A stretch of 44,021 nucleotides of DNA, taken from Opitutales bacterium. GTDB lineage: Bacteria > Verrucomicrobiota > Verrucomicrobiia > Opitutales > Oceanipulchritudinaceae. The notes under the pieces are model-generated. The model worked only from the letters and a program-made list of their open reading frames with translations. It had not been told where the DNA came from and searched no databases. Each line of letters begins with the position of its first letter. The first letter of the stretch is position 1. Positions 11,254 to 33,013 of this stretch are shown piece after piece. The stretch lies in contig SLLG01000239.1 of the NCBI GenBank assembly GCA_007134215.1, positions 1 through 44,021 of the forward strand, in the 5' to 3' direction. The position numbers and the translations under genes were made by a program.

Positions 11254-12849
11254 TCATCCAGCGGAGGACTCATAACGGATCTCCGGAAACTCCGCCGCAG
11301 TGCGGGCGTTTCGTCCGTTACCGGAGGCATAGGGTCCAAGGACAACACCGGTCCATCCCGTTGCCAGTTCTGTCGAAAGGAGCCGCAGCGGACAGCGGTC
11401 GAGGGTCTCGAGCGTACCGGGATCCGCGCCCGCGCGCAAGGTGTAGTGCGTGTAATCGCCGGACACCTCAAGGTGGCAGACCTCACCGGCAAAGGGAATT
11501 CTTCCCATCACCTGCTCCATGTCGAGAATCCGCCGCCGCACCAACAGAAAAGACCCGCCGGATTCCCTTCGCAAGAGCAGCGAAACATGAAAAGTGTCGC
11601 TTTGGCGGAGGGCCAATCCCGCCTCTTCGCCAATGTTCCCGGGACGAAACCGCATTACGGCGCGCATCTTGAAGTGAAAATGCTCCTGGCGGCGCCCGAT
11701 GAAGGCGGGAGTGGCACAATCCGCCAATGAACGCGCGTTGCCCCGCAAGCGCACCCCGCCCCCGGGCAGCGGCGAACACTCCGCCGGTGAAAGGGGTGCC
11801 CGTAGCGTGGACCATTGTAGGGCGAGGCGGTCGTTTTCGAAAACCGCATCCGCCGCGGGTGCCGGCCACGGGCACGGGGTGAGCGCGGGAGCGCGCATGG
11901 TGGCGCTGATCGGCCGGTTTCCATTGACCACCGGCCATCCATCGACCCACTCCACCGGAGCAAGAAAGGTCTCACGTCCCATGACGTGAAAATTGTATCC
12001 AAAACGCGGATCATGCCGCGTGCCCAGAAAAACCATCCACCATGAACCGTCATGCGCTTCGACAAGATCCCCGTGCCCGGTGTAGCGGATGCCATGGGGA
12101 ACGAGATGGCGGTGGGTCAGAATGGGATTGTGAGGACAGGGCGTGAACGGACCCCAGGGTGACTCGCTCCGCCCCACTGTGATCATGTGTCCATAGCCGG
12201 TCCCGCCCTCCGCGCAGAGCAGGTAATACCAGCCGTTGGCCTTGTAGAGGTGCGGGCCTTCCGCGTCCGTCGAAGCAAACGGTCCGGAGATGCGACGCAC
12301 GGGTTGGAGCAGGCGACCGCTGGTCACGTCGATCTCCGCCTGTACGGTCGATCCGCGCTCGCGGCGCGTGTAATACACCCGACCGTCGTCGTCGAAGAAC
12401 AGCGACGGATCGAAGCAGCCCTGATCCACACACACGGGCTCCGACCACGCCCCGGCGGGATCCTCCGCCGTGACGTAGAAATTCCCCGAGCCGCCGACGT
12501 CAGTCGTGATCAGGTAGAAGCGGCCGTCATGATGGCGCAAGGTGGGCGCGAAGATTCCCTGCGAGCTGGGCCGTGCGGCGAGGTCGAGCTGCGACCGTCG
12601 CGTAAGGGCATGGCCGATCGGACGCCAATGCACGAGGTCACGGCTGTGAAAGAGCGGCACGCCGGGAAAGTACTCAAACGAACTGACGCCAAGGTAGTAA
12701 TCCCCCCCCACCCGGCAGATGGACGGATCGGGATGAAAGCCGGCAATGACCGGATTGGCAAAAGTGCGCGGCCACGGTTCGGCTCCGGGCTTGGCGCCGT
12801 GCACGCTGCGTGCAGGCGGCGGTCCGGACGCAACAAGGGGATCAGCCAT
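11254..12849 (-). CDS. GH43 glycosidase (beta-xylosidase / arabinofuranosidase type)
   Basis: The 531-aa enzyme shows the three GH43 catalytic acids: general base Asp41 in FHPDPSIC, the pKa-modulating Asp147 in CFDPSLFFDDDG, and general acid Glu197 in DAEGPHLYK. The five-bladed propeller is followed from about residue 330 by a beta-sandwich with FRPGNIGEEAGLAL and HYTLRAG, the accessory domain usual in longer GH43 xylosidases. No signal peptide is seen. The ATG at 12849 is preferred to the TTG at 12864. It would cleave xylose or arabinose from imported oligosaccharides, acting downstream of the secreted enzymes and TonB receptor of the same locus. Confidence 0.9.
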   Translation of the reverse strand: MADPLVASGPPPARSVHGAKPGAEPWPRTFANPVIAGFHPDPSICRVGGDYYLGVSSFEYFPGVPLFHSRDLVHWRPIGHALTRRSQLDLAARPSSQGIFAPTLRHHDGRFYLITTDVGGSGNFYVTAEDPAGAWSEPVCVDQGCFDPSLFFDDDGRVYYTRRERGSTVQAEIDVTSGRLLQPVRRISGPFASTDAEGPHLYKANGWYYLLCAEGGTGYGHMITVGRSESPWGPFTPCPHNPILTHRHLVPHGIRYTGHGDLVEAHDGSWWMVFLGTRHDPRFGYNFHVMGRETFLAPVEWVDGWPVVNGNRPISATMRAPALTPCPWPAPAADAVFENDRLALQWSTLRAPLSPAECSPLPGGGVRLRGNARSLADCATPAFIGRRQEHFHFKMRAVMRFRPGNIGEEAGLALRQSDTFHVSLLLRRESGGSFLLVRRRILDMEQVMGRIPFAGEVCHLEVSGDYTHYTLRAGADPGTLETLDRCPLRLLSTELATGWTGVVLGPYASGNGRNARTAAEFPEIRYESSAG

Positions 12850-12908
12850 GGAATGCGGCCTCAATTACTGAAATGCGGGGTCGTTCTTGCATCAGGGTCA
12901 TCGAGAAA

Positions 12909-12952: not shown

Positions 12953-13918
12953 TTATCGGATGACAAAGGCCCATGCACCCTCGGACGCCACGTTTGCGGC
13001 GGGCAAATACATCCAGCCTTCGATGGAAAGGATGTAAACAAAGTCCTCCACCGGATAGATCCAGCCGAGGAACTCGCCCGTGTCGACCCAGCCCGATGCT
13101 TCGATTTCGTAACCGGCCCATGTTTCGGGATCCGGGTCGGCGGGATCACCTTCCGCGATAACAACCTCCCAGTAGGCACCCGAGAGAACTGTTCCCTCGC
13201 GGGTGAGCCACTCCGGATTGTTTGGCACATCGAGCTTATCCTCCATTGCCTCGGGGAAGAAAACGATGCCCCATGGGGTGTCCGCCGCCATCGAACCGGC
13301 GCCAATGGCCGCGTGGACGGCCGCCGTGAGGTCGACTTGCAGGTTGTATTCCATCTGGATGCGGTTGGTCACGGGGTCCATTTCCGCCGCGTTGAAGTTG
13401 GCCCGCAACGGCGTCGTTTCCTCGGGACTGAACGCCGTGACCTTGACGGCGTCATCGTAATTCCACGGCCAGGTGTTGGCGAAAGTCGGGAACTGCCCTT
13501 CCGGAATATTCAGCCCGGGAACGAGCCAAACCGAAACGGTCACACCTGGATCGACCGGAAAATCCGCGTCGCGTTCGTGCCAGAGAACGTCGCCGCGCAA
13601 GGTGATGCTTCCCGCGCCGTCGAGCATGGCGTGGAGGTCGGCGAGCGGTGCGCCGTAGACGGTGTCGCCTTCCGCGCGCGCCCCCGCGAAGCGGATGAAG
13701 CTGTACCAAATCCCCTGCGGGTTGACACCCACATTGTTCGCCCAGTTGGAACCGGTGCCGTTGGTCCACTGGTTGAAGCTCTGGCCGTCGAGGATTGTGT
13801 TTGTGCGCAGCCGGCCGGAATCAAACCGCGGATGGATTTGAATGACCTCTTCCGCGGCGAGCATTCCGACCGAAGCCGTCCCGAGGAAAAGGAGAAGGAG
13901 TGTTTTGATGGATTTCAT
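12953..13918 (-). CDS. Secreted protein A of a tandem paralogous pair, unknown function
   Basis: A 321-aa protein with a clear signal peptide (MKSIKTLLLLFLGTASVGMLAA, cleavage after AA). The body begins EEVIQIHPRFDSGR and is rich in beta-strand patterns and tryptophan (NQWTNGTGSNWANNVG, GIWYSFIRFAG, VSVWLVPGL). The last 55 residues form a separate aromatic module: SGWVDTGEFLGWIYP, then GWMYLP, then GAWAF. It is about as long as, and strongly similar to, the next gene upstream (14070-15023). It lies between a TonB receptor and a GH43 enzyme in one co-directional run, so glycan binding at the cell surface is a reasonable guess. No catalytic residues or known domain are recognised. Confidence 0.8.
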   Translation of the reverse strand: MKSIKTLLLLFLGTASVGMLAAEEVIQIHPRFDSGRLRTNTILDGQSFNQWTNGTGSNWANNVGVNPQGIWYSFIRFAGARAEGDTVYGAPLADLHAMLDGAGSITLRGDVLWHERDADFPVDPGVTVSVWLVPGLNIPEGQFPTFANTWPWNYDDAVKVTAFSPEETTPLRANFNAAEMDPVTNRIQMEYNLQVDLTAAVHAAIGAGSMAADTPWGIVFFPEAMEDKLDVPNNPEWLTREGTVLSGAYWEVVIAEGDPADPDPETWAGYEIEASGWVDTGEFLGWIYPVEDFVYILSIEGWMYLPAANVASEGAWAFVIR

Positions 13919-13999
13919 GGTGTTTGATTATTTCCGGATTAACGTAAAAGCGTATTAGCGTCTGTGTGGTTGGCATTCGCCGCTTGACGAGCGGCTCAA

Positions 14000-14018
14000 A
14001 AGCGGCGAGACGCCGCTT
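14000..14018. repeat. REP-like palindrome with partial second unit
   Basis: AAGCGGC-GAGAC-GCCGCTT at 14000-14018, followed by CCACT. A partial opposed arm (CGCCGCTTGA) lies just before it at about 13980-13988, so this looks like a shortened form of the pair at 11146-11200. It fills the gap between the two tandem secreted-protein genes. Confidence 0.7.
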
Positions 14019-14069
14019 CCACTTTGGTTGCGTCCGAACAGTTCTTTGACCCTTGGTATATTAGAAAAA

Positions 14070-15023
14070 TCAACGGATGGAGAACGCCCACGCCCCATCG
14101 GAGGCGACATGGCTCTCGGGGAGGTACATCCAGCCCTCAAGATCGAGGACATAGACGTAATCTTCCAGCGGGTACACCCAGCCGAGAAAGGCACCGGTGT
14201 CGACCCAACCGCTCTCTTCAATGGGAAAACCGGCCCACGCGGCAGGCGGCGGATCGTCGCCCTCGGCCAAGACCACCTCCCAGAAACCGCCGTGCAACAC
14301 CGTCTGCCGTCGGTCGATCCACTGCGGGTTGTTCGGAACATCGAGCTGGTCCTCCATTTCCTCAGGGAAGAGCACAATGCCCCACGGCGTAGTCGGGCTC
14401 ATGTGTCCGGCGGCGATGGCGGCCTTGACCTCCGCCGTCAGGTCGATCCGCAGCGCGTAGGCCATCTTGTCGCGGGTGTCGATGGGATTAAACTCCGCGT
14501 CATCCCAGCTGTCCCGCAAGGGTTCCATATCCTCCGGCGCGAAGCTGGTTACTTTCACCGAATGGAGGTAATTCCAAGGCCATGTGTTGCCAAACCCGGG
14601 AAGACTGCCCTCCGGAATCTCCAGGCCCGGAACAAGCCAGACGGAAACGGCGACACCCGGCGAACCGGGGAAGTCGGGATTGATCTCCAGCCAGTTCACA
14701 TCGCCGCGGAGGGTGATCGATCCAGCGGCGTCGAGGCGTTCGTGCCAATCAGCGAGGGTCAACCCGTACAATTGGCCGGCTTCCGGGCGCTGTCCGGCAA
14801 AACGGATGAAACTGTACCAGATGCCGCGGCTCTCGTTCCAGCCGACATTGTTCGCGCGGGAGGAGCCGGTGCCATTCGTCCACTGTGCGAAGTCCGTCGT
14901 GGCGAGATCGTTTGTGGCCACACGACCGGAGTCAAAGAGCGGATGAATCCGGACCACCTCTTCGGCGGAAGCAGCTGAAGCCGCGGTCAAGATCACTGCG
15001 AGAAGATATTTAGGGTATTTCAT
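14070..15023 (-). CDS. Secreted protein B of a tandem paralogous pair, unknown function
   Basis: A 317-aa paralogue of the downstream gene, colinear over its full length: signal peptide ending ASA, then EEVVRIHPLFDSGRV, QWTNGTGSSRANNVG, RGIWYSFIRFAG, SITLRGDVNW, VSVWLVPGLEIPEG, NTWPWNY, TPWGIVLFPEEMEDQLDVPNNPQW, and the C-terminal module SGWVDTGAFLGWVYP / GWMYLPE / GAWAFSIR. The pair arose by tandem duplication and both copies are intact, so both are probably used. The gene starts 39 bp downstream of the TonB-receptor stop, which supports co-transcription. The C-terminal module resembles that of the 1056-aa beta-helix protein at the head of the locus. Confidence 0.8.
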   Translation of the reverse strand: MKYPKYLLAVILTAASAASAEEVVRIHPLFDSGRVATNDLATTDFAQWTNGTGSSRANNVGWNESRGIWYSFIRFAGQRPEAGQLYGLTLADWHERLDAAGSITLRGDVNWLEINPDFPGSPGVAVSVWLVPGLEIPEGSLPGFGNTWPWNYLHSVKVTSFAPEDMEPLRDSWDDAEFNPIDTRDKMAYALRIDLTAEVKAAIAAGHMSPTTPWGIVLFPEEMEDQLDVPNNPQWIDRRQTVLHGGFWEVVLAEGDDPPPAAWAGFPIEESGWVDTGAFLGWVYPLEDYVYVLDLEGWMYLPESHVASDGAWAFSIR

Positions 15024-15062: not shown

Positions 15063-17615
15063 TTAGAAACGACTCTTGAGTGTCAGATAAACGGTTCTCG
15101 GTTCCTGCGGCATCCCTCCGGGATGAAGATACTTGCGGTTGGCAAGATTGCGCCCGTTGATCTGGACCGTGTGCTCGAAGCGGTTGCCCGTTGCGAAGGT
15201 GTAGGCAATCATGGCGTCGAAGAGAATCTGCGAGCCGAGGAGAACCTCTTTTTCGACGGCATCATCTGTTCCGACGAAGCTCGCTGCCGCCGGATTTTCC
15301 GTGCGCAGTTGGAAGCTGCCGTAGCGCCTGTCCAGCCAATTGAATCCGCCTCCAACAGAGAGTCCGTCAAAACGACCGTCGCTGAAGGTATATTTCGTCC
15401 AGAGGCCGATCTGGTGCTCCGGCACGGAAATACTCGGTGTATTGACGGGAATCTGGTTGCCCTCGCGGATTTCTGCGACGTTCTGGTTGAGAATCTCCAC
15501 CGAATCCAGATACGCGTAGGTAAGGACCCACTGCCAGTTGTCGGTGGGGCGGAAGAAGAGCTCCGTTTCAAAACCCTCCACACGGCGTCCGTTGTTCTGG
15601 TTGCCGATAATCGCGGTCTGCTGGTTGCCGCTGTCGTCGACGGCACCGGGCACGGCAAAGGAGAACGACTTCGGCACGCCGCTGAGTTCCACACGGAAGA
15701 GCGCGAACGAACCAGAGAGACGGTCGTCGAAGAGATCGAATTTCGCGCCGATCTCATACCCCGTTCCGCTGATCGGTGTAAGCGGTTCCGGATCGGTGAA
15801 AACGCGTTCGCCCGGCGGTTTCTCCAGCTCGGCCGCGATTTCGCTGTCAGATTTGATCCGGTTGACAAAACCGTTTTGCGGTCGGAACGACTCACTGTAC
15901 GACGCGTAAAGGTTGATTTGCTCATTGAGCCGATAAGACGTGCCCAACTGGAAGGTCGTTTCCTCCGAGGTGTTCAGCGGGAGACCGGGCCGCTCCACAC
16001 GCTGGGACTCCTCTTTGTCGTAACGGATGCCGCCAAGAATGAGCAGCCGGTCGTCGAGGAAGCGGCTGAGGTTGGAAATGAAGGCAGAGTAGTTCTTTCG
16101 GTCCTGAAAGTTCTGGGGCTGGAGCGGGCGGTTGAGATCGATCTCGAAGCGACCGGGAACGAGGAAGGCCGAACCGGTGACCGGATTGAAGGGATCCTCC
16201 GCCACGGCATCGGCGATCTCGGGGTTGACAATATTGCTGCCCCCGCCCGTCGCCACCGATCCGCGGAAGTTGTCATTCATGTGCTCAAGACCGATGAACG
16301 TCTGGTTCTCCACATCGCCAAGGTTCCAACGGCCGGTGATCTCGAGCTGCCCGGTAAAATCGAAATTCCGCCGCTTGAAGTGGTTCCATGAATACCCGGC
16401 GGCTTTGTCGCCGGAGAGGCCGAGTGCCCAGATGTCACCCCACGCCGAGCGCCGGACAATGTTGTGGTGTACGACATAGAGGCGCGAGGCCCACGCATCG
16501 CCGAGCTGCTGCCGGACCTCGAGCGAGACCGTGTGCTGGTCGACATCATTGAAGGCGTTGGCGGGCACGAAATTATTGCGCCGCCCCCAGAACTCGGCGT
16601 ATCCGTTCCAAAACCGATTGCCCTCCGAAGAGGCTGTGTAGAACAAATACGGCTGCCCCGTGCCCGGATCGGTGAATTCCACCGGCGGGTTCAGTGCGTA
16701 GCTGTCGCGCGGGTCCTGCCCGGCGAGAACGCGCACGCCGAGATTTTCCACCGGTTCGGTGAATCCGGCTACAAGCTCCTGGAAGATCTCACGCCATTGC
16801 GTGTTGTATTCGGGAAGCGGGCTGGCGTTGAAGGAGTTCTGGTTCAGGTAGTCCCACTGCACGGTGACCGTTGTTTGGCGGAAGGGTTTGTATTGAAGCA
16901 ATCCCGACCAAAACGAGCGCTCGTCCTCGGTGTTCTCGCGCCAGCCGCCGTCACGCTTGTAGGAGGCGTCAAAGCGGTAGAGCACTTCGTGGCGTCCGTC
17001 GTCGCGCCCCGCGTAGAGGGGGCCGGTATGGTTGATCTGCGCGCGGTAGTGACCGTAGCTGCCCCACGTGAACTGAACATCCGTGCGAAACTCGTCGAGC
17101 GGGCGCATCGTGAGGTAGTTGACGATCCCGCCCGGCTCGACTTGCCCGTAGAGAAGCGACATCGGCCCCTTCACGACCTCGACCCGTTCGACGTTTGTCA
17201 TATCCTGGCTGTAGAGTTGGTTGATGCCGTTCCGTTTCGAACGAAGCGTGCGCAGGCCGCGGATGTAGAAACCACCTGTCTCCTCGGCAGTAGTGGAAGC
17301 CCCTTGGGTCACCCCGGCGGTGAAGCGCACGGAGTCCTCGAGGGTGAGCGAATAGGTGTCCTCCAGAAACTCCCGCGTAAGGGAAGTGATCGTCAGCGGC
17401 ACTTCGCGGATGATGGCGTTGAACCGCGTGGCCGAAAGGGTGTTGCGCACCTGGTAGCCGCGCACCTCGCCTCCGGTCACGGTAAAGGGATCGAGCAAAT
17501 AGACATCATCATCGTCCAACTGTGCGTGAAGCGTCCCGGAAAGGACGACAACCGTTGCGGCAAGGGCACCGCATATACGGCGTAGAGTCCGCGGGATCTG
17601 ATGGTATTGATTCAT
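15063..17615 (-). CDS. TonB-dependent outer-membrane receptor
   Basis: The 850-aa protein has a signal peptide (hydrophobic ICGALAATVVVLSGTLHAQ) and a plug domain from about residue 40 with FTVTGGEVRGYQV, TAGVTQGAS..GFYIRGLR, and VERVEVVKGPMSLLYGQVEPGG, the standard plug signature. The remainder is a 22-strand-type barrel that closes with the C-terminal aromatic RTVYLTLKSRF. It would import a ligand too large for porins, using TonB energy. The layout resembles siderophore-type receptors of Verrucomicrobiota that have been recruited to glycan uptake. It has no SusD neighbour; instead two tandem secreted proteins follow it and a secreted beta-helix protein precedes it by 41 bp. Glycan oligomer import is therefore the likelier role. 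Confidence 0.93.
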   Translation of the reverse strand: MNQYHQIPRTLRRICGALAATVVVLSGTLHAQLDDDDVYLLDPFTVTGGEVRGYQVRNTLSATRFNAIIREVPLTITSLTREFLEDTYSLTLEDSVRFTAGVTQGASTTAEETGGFYIRGLRTLRSKRNGINQLYSQDMTNVERVEVVKGPMSLLYGQVEPGGIVNYLTMRPLDEFRTDVQFTWGSYGHYRAQINHTGPLYAGRDDGRHEVLYRFDASYKRDGGWRENTEDERSFWSGLLQYKPFRQTTVTVQWDYLNQNSFNASPLPEYNTQWREIFQELVAGFTEPVENLGVRVLAGQDPRDSYALNPPVEFTDPGTGQPYLFYTASSEGNRFWNGYAEFWGRRNNFVPANAFNDVDQHTVSLEVRQQLGDAWASRLYVVHHNIVRRSAWGDIWALGLSGDKAAGYSWNHFKRRNFDFTGQLEITGRWNLGDVENQTFIGLEHMNDNFRGSVATGGGSNIVNPEIADAVAEDPFNPVTGSAFLVPGRFEIDLNRPLQPQNFQDRKNYSAFISNLSRFLDDRLLILGGIRYDKEESQRVERPGLPLNTSEETTFQLGTSYRLNEQINLYASYSESFRPQNGFVNRIKSDSEIAAELEKPPGERVFTDPEPLTPISGTGYEIGAKFDLFDDRLSGSFALFRVELSGVPKSFSFAVPGAVDDSGNQQTAIIGNQNNGRRVEGFETELFFRPTDNWQWVLTYAYLDSVEILNQNVAEIREGNQIPVNTPSISVPEHQIGLWTKYTFSDGRFDGLSVGGGFNWLDRRYGSFQLRTENPAAASFVGTDDAVEKEVLLGSQILFDAMIAYTFATGNRFEHTVQINGRNLANRKYLHPGGMPQEPRTVYLTLKSRF

Positions 17616-17656
17616 AGGGTAAATGACGATTGCTTACGGTCGACGGGGTTTCGGGC

Positions 17657-20600
17657 TCACTCGCGCCACTCGCCGGTGGAGGCATCATAGAAGGCGGAGC
17701 TGCCGACGCTTCCACGGGCGTAGAGCCAGTCTTCGGCAGCGCTGTCGTAAAACCACGGATAGAGGTCGCGCCGGGTCCAGAGCCAGCCGAAGCCTTCCGT
17801 CCACATCCACGCGCTCGCGAGCGTGCCCGGCGGCACATGGAAGTAGCGGCCCAGCTCCGCCGACCACGCCCAATCGCCCGCGAACAGCGTATAGTGGCCG
17901 AGGTCCGGATGGTAGACTTCATCCGCGGCATAGCCGACAAAGCCGTCCCAGAAGGTGAAGCCCGCCGTCGTGCCTTCCACAACGAGTGCGGGACGGTAAG
18001 CCGCCGCCACGGTCGCATCGGGCGAATACCACTCGACGTAGTTGTTCTGTCCGTCGTCGTTCGGCGTAGAGCGGAGCTGAAGCCCCAGATAGTGGCGGCC
18101 TTCCGTGATGCACGCCCGCAACGCATCCCGGATGGGAAAGGCGGAAGATGTATTCACCGCAAAACTGTCCGCATCCTGCCTGGTGACAAAGGAGGCCTCC
18201 CGTCCAAAGGCTGCCGCGGTTACCACGCCGAAGACAGGTTCGGTGATGCGGTAGAGATTCACATCGAGAGGATTGACCAGCGCGCGGGGGGTCACCTCAT
18301 AGGTCGCCACCCGGATCGCGTCAGCCGCACCTCGCAACCGGTAAATATCGAGCTCGGCATGCAACCTGACCTCGGTGTCCTGAGCGTGTGTGGCGACGGC
18401 CTCGTCGCCCGTGCGGAGCATGAGCGCTTCGATGGCCGCGTTACCCTGGCCGTTCCGCGGTGGCCGGTCGTCAATCCGGCGGAACTGCCCCCGCTGCGGG
18501 CGCAGGACCAGTCGCTCGCCGAGGACGACGGACACCGCGAAAGTTTCAAAGGTCTCGTGCAGGCCGTTGCGCACGCGCACGCCGATTTCGTAGTCGCCTA
18601 CCCTACTGAAATGAGCGCGCGCCGTTGCCGCTGCGGGGTTGTCGAACGACACCTCGCCAGGTCCGCTCACACGGGACCAGTGCACCGACGGCACCCCCGG
18701 TCCGTTTCCTTCGACCTCCGCAATGAGAACCGCGCCGTCCTGCAAGTCGGGAACACGGGTGTGGAAAACCCGCACCTCCGGCGCGGAGCTTGTGGCGTCG
18801 TCGGCATAGCGGCTGGTGTAGAGCGGAATCATTGCTCCCGCCGCCCCCGGCCCCGCCCGGCTAAGCGTATCGCGGTGGACCACTATTGGATCGGTCGTTG
18901 GGAGGCGGCGGCGTTCACCGTCGCGGTATTCATCGCTGATGAACCGGTGGCGGAAATTCCAGTTCGGCGGGCCATGCACTTCGACAGCGCGTTCCAGAGC
19001 CGATACCGTGATCTGCGCGTCCTCAACAAAAAAAACGGGGGTATCAAAAGGCTCCAGCTCGACGCCGTGACTTACGTTCATAACCCCTCCCAGCAGTTCG
19101 AATCGAGCCTGGTCGTGGGCGTAAATCATCGGCCCCTGCTGCTCACCGAACTTCGCGCCGAACATCCAGAAGTCGCCGCCGCTCATGACAAGCATAGGCA
19201 AAGCCATTTCCGGATTGAACTGAAAGGCCCACGACTGCTGATCGTGAATCACCCAGCTCGCCAAGTCCGGCCGAAACTGCTGCCCACCGGGGACATTGCA
19301 CACATTGGTGATGAAGAGGCGTCCCGTCGAAGGATCGTTTCGATACACGCCGCCGGAGATCCAGAAAATATCCTTGAGGATAAGATCCGCGTTGGAGCGG
19401 TTGTGGATCAGGTATTCCTTCAGGTTATGCTGCCATTCCCCCCAGATTTGTTCGATGATGACTGCGGGATGGTCACTCACGCCCAGCTCAAAGACCGGCT
19501 TGCCGCTCCCTGTGAGGGGAAAGGCCAAGTGGATCTGCGCGTAGTTACTGGCGATGCGTTTGACGGAGGGACCGATCCGTATCGTGTCGCTGACCACAAA
19601 ACGGCCGGGCTTAAGGAAAATTGTTTCGGCACCTGACATCATCGCCTCGCGTAGGTAGGCGGTGTGATCGCTTCGGCCCGCAGGGTCGACCACGAGCCAG
19701 TCGTGGGGAGCGTCCCATTCGACGACCGGAAACTCCGGCTCCGGCAGGTAGAGAAAATCTTCAGGCGCATGCTCCCAGACCTTGTATGCCGGTCCATTGC
19801 GGTAGCTGCCGTCCGCCCCAGTCGCCTCCACCCGGCTGCCATTGTCATTGAGCAAGTAGCCGTATCCGGTCTGTGTGACGTTGCGCAGGTAAAAGAAATC
19901 GCCGTTTCCGATAAGGGCAGACCCCTCTGCCGTGAGGCCTTCGGGCGTCCGGAATTCCGCGTTGAGGAAAAGGATGTTTCCGTCGCGGAACACGCTGTCG
20001 AGGACGGGCACGGTGTTTTCACTCCTGAGGTTGTAGATTGTCACCGGCTTGCGGTGCGTCCGAATGCCAACCTGACGCTGCCCGATAAGGTCGATATCCT
20101 TCAAGACCCAGGAGTAGACCGACGTGATTGTGTTATCCATGCGGATTCCGATATCAAATCCCTCGATACGAACATTTTCAGCAATTGCCGGAGCCGAGAT
20201 GGCAGAGGAGAGATCCAGGCCGACAGAGCCTGCCCCATCGGGATCGAGCGAGCGGATCGTCACGTTGCTCATCCGGGTGACGTTGTTTCCCTGGAACCGC
20301 ACGGCCACGGCACCCGGGTTGCCCGCGCCGACCTCAACCGTGAAGTTTTCGAAGGTATTGAGAAATCCATTGTTCGTCCAATCGCCCTCAAAATAGCTGA
20401 TCACCGGCGTCCGCCGGGCGGCGTCCTGAAAAGCCGTCGTGTTGTCCGGCACAAAGAGCGTAACGCCCTCGCGGCTCTCGCCCTGCATCAGGATGTACTG
20501 GCCACCTGGCGTGCGCGTCTCCAGAACCACCGGTTCCTCAATCCGGTAACGCCCGTCCGGAAAATAAACAAACATCGGCACGCCGACCGGCCACGTGCGG

Positions 20601-20827
20601 GCATGAAGCGAGGCGGCCAGAATTGCCGCTGAGCTGTCCGACTCTCCCGTCGGGTCCGCATTGAACGGTGCCTGCGTCACATCGACGACAAAGCCACCCC
20701 CGTCCGGGTAGCCTATGTGTTCGCGGGAACCGGTCATCGCCGCCGCTCCCGCCGACAGGACACAGCACGCAAGGACGGAAAGAAGGAAATTCGCGCGGGG
20801 TATTCTCAAGGGTATCGCCAACATCAC
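17657..20827 (-). CDS. Secreted right-handed beta-helix (pectate-lyase-superfamily) protein with C-terminal GW module
   Basis: A 1056-aa secreted protein. After a signal peptide (to about residue 30) the start of the mature part, VDVTQAPFNADPTGESDSSAAILAA, is the classic opening of Pectate_lyase_3 proteins, followed by PVFVYFPDGRYRIEEPV-like sequence and many parallel beta-helix turns to about residue 650. A PKD/Ig-like segment follows (VHWSRVSGPGEVSFDNPAAATARAHFSRVGDYEIGVRV region) and then a DNRLRE-like beta domain. The last 90 residues are an aromatic module (FAGDWAWSAELGRYF, GFGWLWTRRDLYPWFY, WLYARG) seen at the ends of Opitutales extracellular proteins, perhaps for surface retention. Catalytic residues cannot be assigned, so lyase or hydrolase activity on a pectin-like or algal glycan is inferred. 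It heads the minus-strand locus behind a LacI-type operator. Confidence 0.85.
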   Translation of the reverse strand: MMLAIPLRIPRANFLLSVLACCVLSAGAAAMTGSREHIGYPDGGGFVVDVTQAPFNADPTGESDSSAAILAASLHARTWPVGVPMFVYFPDGRYRIEEPVVLETRTPGGQYILMQGESREGVTLFVPDNTTAFQDAARRTPVISYFEGDWTNNGFLNTFENFTVEVGAGNPGAVAVRFQGNNVTRMSNVTIRSLDPDGAGSVGLDLSSAISAPAIAENVRIEGFDIGIRMDNTITSVYSWVLKDIDLIGQRQVGIRTHRKPVTIYNLRSENTVPVLDSVFRDGNILFLNAEFRTPEGLTAEGSALIGNGDFFYLRNVTQTGYGYLLNDNGSRVEATGADGSYRNGPAYKVWEHAPEDFLYLPEPEFPVVEWDAPHDWLVVDPAGRSDHTAYLREAMMSGAETIFLKPGRFVVSDTIRIGPSVKRIASNYAQIHLAFPLTGSGKPVFELGVSDHPAVIIEQIWGEWQHNLKEYLIHNRSNADLILKDIFWISGGVYRNDPSTGRLFITNVCNVPGGQQFRPDLASWVIHDQQSWAFQFNPEMALPMLVMSGGDFWMFGAKFGEQQGPMIYAHDQARFELLGGVMNVSHGVELEPFDTPVFFVEDAQITVSALERAVEVHGPPNWNFRHRFISDEYRDGERRRLPTTDPIVVHRDTLSRAGPGAAGAMIPLYTSRYADDATSSAPEVRVFHTRVPDLQDGAVLIAEVEGNGPGVPSVHWSRVSGPGEVSFDNPAAATARAHFSRVGDYEIGVRVRNGLHETFETFAVSVVLGERLVLRPQRGQFRRIDDRPPRNGQGNAAIEALMLRTGDEAVATHAQDTEVRLHAELDIYRLRGAADAIRVATYEVTPRALVNPLDVNLYRITEPVFGVVTAAAFGREASFVTRQDADSFAVNTSSAFPIRDALRACITEGRHYLGLQLRSTPNDDGQNNYVEWYSPDATVAAAYRPALVVEGTTAGFTFWDGFVGYAADEVYHPDLGHYTLFAGDWAWSAELGRYFHVPPGTLASAWMWTEGFGWLWTRRDLYPWFYDSAAEDWLYARGSVGSSAFYDASTGEWRE

Positions 20828-32006: not shown

Positions 32007-32128
32007 GGGGTTGGCACCGGGATAATGGGGGCGGCGCACGGTCCCGGCCGCGCTAAACACTTCATTTTGGCCGGTTCGCGTAATTGGCGTTGCATTATCG
32101 CAGGTTCTCATTAGAAATCCTAACTGCA

Positions 32129-33013
32129 ATGAAAAGCCTGACTATTCCATACACTGTATCCGCAGCCTTCGCGGGCCTCGCTCTGTGCGCCGGTCTCGCC
32201 GCCAACACCATCACCTACAATTTCCTCATCAGCGCCTCCGAGGAGGTGCCGGCACCGACCACGACGGGAAGCGCCGGCTACGCCACCGTGGAACTCGACA
32301 CCGCCGCCAACGAGCTGGCATGGAACATCGTCTATACGGGGCTGACTCCGTCCGCCGCGCATTTCCACGGCAACGCCGCCGCCGGGTCGACCGCAGGTGT
32401 CAAAGTCGGTATCGGGGCACTTCCCAGCCCCATGGTCGGTTCGGCATCGATTTCCGCACAGGATGTCACCGACATCCAGAACGGCTTGTGGTATGTGAAC
32501 ATTCACACGAGCCTCAATGCGCCCGGCGAAATCCGCGGGCAGGTGGAGACCCAGCTACCCTTCACCCCAAACCTTCTCCTCGCGGGCGCGAACGAGGTTC
32601 CCGAAGTTGCTGCCGCCTCCGCCGGCGCGGCGCTCGTCACCTACAACATCAACACAATGGAACTCTCGTGGGAACTCGCCTACCAGGGAATCGCCGGGGG
32701 TGCGACGGCGATGCACTTCCACGGCCCGGGGGGCCCGGACGTCAACGCGGGGGTGCGGTTGGACATTGAAGCTCTCGGGACCGGCGGTCTGAGCGAATAC
32801 AATTTCGGTTCTTCGATCCTTACCGCTTCGCACGCGGACGAGTTGCTCGACGGTCTCTGGTACATCAACATCCACTCCGCCGCCTTCCCCGGCGGTGAAC
32901 TGCGCGGACAAGTCATGCCCGTGGTTATTCCCGAGCCGTCGGCGTTCGCCCTCTTCTTCGGGCTCGCGGCCATCGCCGCGCTCGTCGCCCGCCGCCGCCG
33001 CCGGACGACGTAA
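32129..33013 (+). CDS. Exported protein with two CHRD domains and a PEP-CTERM sorting signal
   Basis: A 294-aa exported protein. The signal peptide ends near residue 25 (AGLAA). Two CHRD (chordin-type) domains follow at about 28-148 and 152-270, each with the pattern AHFHG / LWYVNIHT..APGEIRGQV and MHFHGPGG / LWYINIHSAAFPGGELRGQV. The C-terminus has VIPEPSAFALFFGLAAIAALVARRRRR, the PEP motif, hydrophobic helix and basic tail of exosortase-processed proteins. CHRD proteins bind metals or other extracellular partners in unknown ways. It is convergent with aroQ (gap 9 bp). Confidence 0.93.
   Translation: MKSLTIPYTVSAAFAGLALCAGLAANTITYNFLISASEEVPAPTTTGSAGYATVELDTAANELAWNIVYTGLTPSAAHFHGNAAAGSTAGVKVGIGALPSPMVGSASISAQDVTDIQNGLWYVNIHTSLNAPGEIRGQVETQLPFTPNLLLAGANEVPEVAAASAGAALVTYNINTMELSWELAYQGIAGGATAMHFHGPGGPDVNAGVRLDIEALGTGGLSEYNFGSSILTASHADELLDGLWYINIHSAAFPGGELRGQVMPVVIPEPSAFALFFGLAAIAALVARRRRRTT

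Follow-up and report, generated by a model that had tools for sequence, protein, structure and literature searches.

An aromatic module with a strong C-terminal preference on diverse, mostly exported proteins of an Opitutales bacterium

Tandem paralogues and two module types in a polysaccharide-use region

The stretch of DNA analyzed here (the window; 44,021 nucleotides) carries on its reverse strand two adjacent genes whose products end alike. Paralogue 1 (12953..13918, 321 aa) consists of a signal peptide, a body resembling a carbohydrate-binding module (CBM) and an aromatic module of ~57 aa, hereafter type A, while paralogue 2 (14070..15023, 317 aa) combines a signal peptide, a body of the same kind and again a type A module. 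The module occupies 12956..13123 in paralogue 1, where it runs up to the stop codon, and 14073..14240 in paralogue 2, as located by profile and sequence search (both reverse strand). The C-terminal ends read WAGYEIEASGWVDTGEFLGWIYP...GWMYLP...GAWAFVIR and WAGFPIEESGWVDTGAFLGWVYP...GWMYLP...GAWAFSIR, respectively. With 66% identity over the mature part and type A at both ends, the pair is confirmed as the tandem duplication with a shared aromatic end that the original prediction had described, and the same pair is kept in another metagenome-assembled genome (MAG; locus L107). It is flanked downstream by a GH43 glycosidase gene (11254..12864, reverse strand; PF04616, E 2.8e-86) and on the other side by an adjoining gene for a TonB-dependent receptor (15063..17615, reverse strand; PF00593, E 3.1e-37; PF07715, E 1.3e-15), within a polysaccharide-use region (window 7553-30391) that includes a fucosidase, a LacI regulator, GH43, GH10 and two TonB-dependent receptors.

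A third protein of the region, the 1056-aa beta-helix type protein (Pect-lyase_RHGA_epim; 17657..20827, reverse strand), ends in a Trp/Tyr-rich module of ~87 aa, type B (17666..17926, reverse strand). Profiles of the two types can be aligned along 43 columns of their first halves, with a probability of 96.6 and an E of 6.8e-10, the alignment behind type A including a typed consensus among its rows. The end of this protein, which had been thought similar to that of the paralogues, is thus related to it but belongs to a distinct and longer type. Trp, Tyr and Phe account for 22% of residues in the modules versus 10% in the bodies.

When the predicted model of the paralogue 1 body was compared with known folds, the leading matches were 8wab, a chondroitin-sulfate-binding CBM (Z 12.2, rmsd 3.3, 159 aligned), and 7vbo, an alginate-binding CBM (Z 12.2, rmsd 3.2, 160 aligned), with the third-ranked match below both at Z 8.6; by Foldseek alone, Eph receptor domains ranked above the two CBMs, and the model itself is of moderate confidence (whole-model mean pLDDT 71.8). 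The translated signal peptide of neither paralogue contains a lipobox cysteine. With a body of CBM type and a signal peptide that lacks this cysteine, the window paralogues look like surface glycan-binding proteins that would be anchored by their module.

Modeled alone, type A gave a confident prediction with short beta strands (pLDDT 90.2, pTM 0.74), and the module is therefore predicted to fold autonomously. No known fold could be assigned to it, since searches returned only matches at noise level: Foldseek against the PDB found nothing significant (best E 5.2), and VIA ranked RBM10's OCRE domain highest (Z 2.7, rmsd 3.2, 51 aligned). These null results do not prove the fold new. Pfam gave no convincing match to type A in 20 modules scanned and NCBIfam no module match in the window proteins, while the type B profile had a single match in the PDB, to phage-like XepA (E 0.0093, domain E 0.18). 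The OCRE match, weak as it is, is the best structural pointer to a protein-protein docking module, dockerin-like or OCRE-like, that assembles proteins on a surface scaffold, and a common docking tag would account for the unrelated bodies described below. However, a Z of 2.7 lies in the noise range by VIA's own note and no receptor or scaffold protein was recognized in an analysis that included no systematic search for one, so that we consider docking very unlikely.

Carriers and taxonomic range of the module

Far from being limited to the two paralogues, type A or B occurs in 72 ORFs of the bacterium's own genome (domain E<=0.01; 4.44 Mb in 374 contigs), with the architectures A (9), AA (7), B (55) and split B (1). 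For this census, stretches around matches were fetched, some weak matches being left out, and stop-to-stop ORFs of >=90 aa were scanned; some of the weak type B matches counted, e.g., C267, are doubtful. The underlying searches of the genome, which show a recurrence beyond chance, found 19 places with a single-module query at E<=10 (among them 12 below 1e-5), 36 with the first profile at E<=1 (21 below 1e-14, mostly members of the profile) and 64 with the type B profile at E<=0.01, part of which are type A sites.

The expectation that the module sits on several proteins with differing bodies was borne out by these 72 ORFs, whose Pfam bodies are unrelated. Bodies were scanned in 69 of the 72, three being too short, and the best 25 of 27 and the best 25 of 34 families were listed. 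Among the matches listed, subtilase (3), FG-GAP (3), Stf0 sulfotransferase (2) and FGE-sulfatase (2) recur, and serpin, cyclophilin, endonuclease I, GSDH, pectate lyase, RGL11, chondroitinase B, GH16, GH88, TonB_C, TraB, purple acid phosphatase N, PQQ, Reprolysin, AhpC-TSA and PATR occur once each. Further cargo was recognized by eye in relatives (L117, L112 and L115), including a multihaem cytochrome-like protein (L117:2531-4171) with many CxxCH haem-binding motifs and a type A module at its end.

Since lyases and glycosidases (GH16, pectate lyase, chondroitinase B, RGL11, GH88) make up many of the carriers, the module is rich in aromatic residues and the window holds a polysaccharide locus, we considered whether it is a substrate-targeting carbohydrate-binding module that guides polysaccharide-degrading enzymes to external polysaccharide. 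This appears quite improbable: the diversity of bodies argues against one external substrate, or each enzyme's own substrate, as the common target, for subtilase, serpin, cyclophilin, endonuclease I, TraB, AhpC/Redoxin, TonB_C and Stf0 bodies are unlikely to share one, and the body of the window paralogues is already CBM-like in fold.

Type A was found in 16 of 17 genomes of the bacterium's own family, and 2 of the 38 other genomes of the order gave a marginal match (E ~2e-4); in a sample of the phylum it appeared in at least 4 of 387 genomes, all of the own family. Type B was likewise present in 16 of 17 family genomes, but also in 11 of the 38 others of the order and in at least 9 of the 387 phylum genomes, two of them beyond the order; the phylum figures are lower bounds because few candidates were scored per genome. 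In the genomes sampled, type A is thus limited to one Opitutales family, and type B is wider. A scan of genome contigs placed 17 loci in named relatives, mostly Opitutales MAGs, several of which carry the label CSSed, presumably for soda-lake sediment. PMC13274419 describes the GTDB family T3Sed10-336 as Verruconatronaceae and reports that it is abundant in alkaline environments and degrades polysaccharides, and we infer that this soda-lake family is the one to which our bacterium belongs. The term 'C-terminal' occurs in neither PMC13274419 nor PMC7356697, and among the open-licence PMC papers listed by searches for an earlier account of the module, none gave one in its title or abstract opening.

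Placement, export and the question of a sorting signal

Among the 70 ORFs with a visible 3' end, the module lies within 35 aa of the stop in 61 and within 12 aa in 55, and in 14 of 15 type A proteins the tail after the module is only 0-4 aa. The same placement was seen in 20 stretches from three relatives, where 35 aa or fewer separate the module from the stop in all 22 module ORFs (19 from G007 and three Stf0 proteins, one each from G012, G001 and G007); the 19 sampled in G007 outside the sulfotransferase all end 0-4 aa after it, in a sample that is not random because the stretches were chosen from the top type A matches. Carriers are also enriched in signal peptides. A home-made rule (charged start, hydrophobic core and small-x-small site) scored as positive 56 of the 63 carriers whose 5' end is visible, versus 74 of 240 controls (Fisher p 2e-17), a contrast that is only approximate because the greedy control ORF set includes spurious frames. 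Two of the seven negatives (C299, C26, C227, C239, C186, C267 and C100) have a plausible signal peptide further into the ORF, as judged by eye (C299 and C26), and two are Stf0 sulfotransferases (C227 and C239). Anchoring through a lipobox was rejected as an explanation, with 4 of 57 signal-peptide-positive module ORFs against 7 of 74 controls and hence no informative difference.

The strong C-terminal bias (61 of 70, and 19 of 19 in G007), like the enrichment in signal peptides, also fits a signal at the C-terminus that a dedicated machine of the outer membrane would read for sorting or secretion, as happens with PEP-CTERM or type IX secretion system (T9SS) tails. Other features of placement speak against such a signal. 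In 9 of the 70 ORFs the module is N-terminal or internal (C248, C140, C180, C313, C186, C26, C100, C78 and C197), and in one of them, the PL1-like lyase C248, it follows directly after the signal peptide. Two type A copies occur in 7 of the 72 carriers, one of which (C367:13891-14394, L021) encodes hardly anything beyond a signal peptide and its two modules, so that these are nearly free-standing. The module proteins share no extreme C-terminal residue. An internal module was also seen in C80, an ORF cut by the contig end. Upstream of a two-module protein, a 73-aa ORF (L105:2653-2871) is made up almost entirely of one type A module and may be a fragment.

The own genome has 30 PEP-CTERM matches and 3 exosortases, and in the window itself an ORF at 32084-33013 (forward strand) has a PEP-CTERM-like tail, so that PEP-CTERM and module systems coexist on this contig. 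Yet none of the 70 module ORFs shows a PEP-like motif and only one ends in a hydrophobic tail, 4 of 277 control ORFs having the PEP-CTERM pattern, and another genome (G010) has modules but neither an exosortase nor a PEP-CTERM match. PEP-CTERM/exosortase was accordingly rejected as the partner of the module and is a separate system in the own genome. One exosortase gene (C270, L174; 15235-16014) does lie beside a module protein (16157-17665), which is of cyclophilin type, carries a type B module in degenerate form and is encoded directly upstream of it; as a single case without a PEP tail, this pair was not accepted as a system. T9SS was discarded as well, for TIGR04183 had no match in the own genome and one match each in 2 of 19 genomes. 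The common processing gene that had been expected to co-occur with the module was therefore not found among these candidates.

A further group of carriers bears on the same question. Stf0 sulfotransferases (PF09037) number 5 in 4 of 19 genomes, two in the own genome (C227 and C239) and one each in G012, G001 and G007, and all five have a C-terminal type B module; loci combining the two are L168:3922-5415, L162:614-2269 (minus strand), L203:3426-5249 and L205:7027-8541. In the four whose start is visible, the sulfotransferase motif lies, as judged by eye, ~10 residues from the N-terminus, which leaves no space for a signal peptide; the fifth is truncated. For type B, these four bear on a condition that the original prediction had named as refuting it, the module's presence in proteins that have no signal peptide. 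The Stf0-module proteins are presumably cytoplasmic. Another carrier (C100:26128-26931, L188) has its type B module at the N-terminus and a TonB_C domain, and is presumably periplasmic. If both placements are right, surface location is not the module's sole role.

Given the modules that are not C-terminal, the tandem copies, the Stf0 carriers and the lack of a partner system, we consider a sorting signal unlikely. What had been proposed as sorting or surface retention does not stand as a strict sorting signal, while surface retention is still the best reading, and the module is better termed a domain for anchoring or binding that strongly prefers the C-terminus.

Envelope anchoring and comparison with known systems

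Among PDB entries, the only matches of a type A profile built from natural sequences alone were 7pl5 (9.7e-4), 4cnl (1.8e-3) and 7pl2 (0.049) at E<=10. Both 7pl5 and 7pl2 are the choline-binding module of LytB, and 4cnl is a pneumococcal surface protein that we take to be a choline-binding protein. The matches persist after removal of the typed consensus row, a second alignment with 24 of 26 rows from other genomes again put 7pl5 (0.0018) and 4cnl (0.092) on top, and column-permuted and reversed profiles (one control each, a small number) gave no choline-binding match; an earlier, smaller profile had reached 7pl5 only at E 0.084. The alignment covers mostly the second half of type A (27-53 of 57). 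Foldseek comparison of type A with these modules was not significant (7pl2, E 5.2; 7pl5, E 9.3), and Pfam choline-binding models had no match at E<=1 in 20 modules. At the level of sequence, common descent and convergence would fit this likeness alike. LicD adds phosphocholine to glycans, and its family (PF04991) was found in none of the 17 family genomes and in 2 of 55 overall, which counts against a choline-glycan ligand; a LicD-made phosphocholine glycan was therefore rejected as the ligand.

Our preferred reading, held with moderate confidence, is that the module is a small all-beta domain which anchors exported proteins non-covalently on the producer's envelope, in the manner of choline-binding repeats. 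It draws on the predicted fold of the module alone, its mobility across unrelated proteins (C-terminal, N-terminal, internal, tandem and nearly alone), the choline-binding-like second half of type A and the mostly signal-peptide-bearing carriers. After export by Sec, the protein would cross the outer membrane by an undefined route and then dock through its module, whose exposed Trp and Tyr residues would bind a repetitive ligand of the envelope; a surface glycan is the likeliest candidate, a choline group a less likely one. In the window paralogues, the CBM-like body would catch polysaccharide while the end module would hold the protein beside the TonB-dependent receptor.

If the Stf0 carriers are indeed cytoplasmic, the ligand would also occur inside the cell, which favors a self-made glycan or lipid. 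On this basis the modules might all recognize one envelope component made by the cell itself, perhaps a glycan or lipid that is sulfated. The Stf0-type B proteins would act on it inside the cell before its export, which would account for their carrying the module; we regard this as a long shot. The surroundings of the Stf0 genes are as follows. A GT2 gene directly precedes that of C227, while those of C239 (L162) and G007 (L205) are preceded by an ORF of 231-241 aa that has no Pfam match and by a BioF/serine-palmitoyltransferase-like gene, an assignment with scores below the NCBIfam cut-offs; the G007 gene also lies downstream of a glycosyltransferase, with an ABC exporter carrying a Wzt_C domain nearby. 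Were the proposal true, the enzyme that makes the ligand and the some seventy proteins docking on it later would share a single recognition module.

Together, these results indicate that the module is real and widespread and probably a variety of the non-covalent anchoring modules, and we found no earlier description of it. To our knowledge, little has been established on how diderm bacteria outside Proteobacteria and Bacteroidota retain enzymes at their surface. With 72 ORFs carrying it in a 4.4-Mb genome and no Pfam match, the module would be a main route of surface retention in this family, and it offers a handle for annotating many hypothetical proteins.

Several known systems invite comparison with the module. 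Like PEP-CTERM, it is one C-terminal region found on dozens of unrelated exported proteins per genome, but it is a folded domain, as predicted, rather than a tail, and may be placed N-terminally. The T9SS C-terminal domain, which is folded, of ~70-80 aa and present on many exported proteins, resembles it in these respects, whereas the aromatic module is not strictly C-terminal. The window paralogues recall SusE/SusF-type proteins in their CBM-like body and adjoining TonB-dependent receptor; unlike these they have no lipobox cysteine, and the C-terminal module is proposed to replace the lipid anchor of the Bacteroidota proteins. In choline-binding repeats, aromatic hairpins grip envelope ligands and serve as non-covalent anchors on exported proteins. 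Type A shares their W-x-Y...W-x-Y-L...W hairpin spacing, but the module forms a single unit of ~57 or ~87 aa instead of long rows of repeats, and it occurs here in Verrucomicrobiota.
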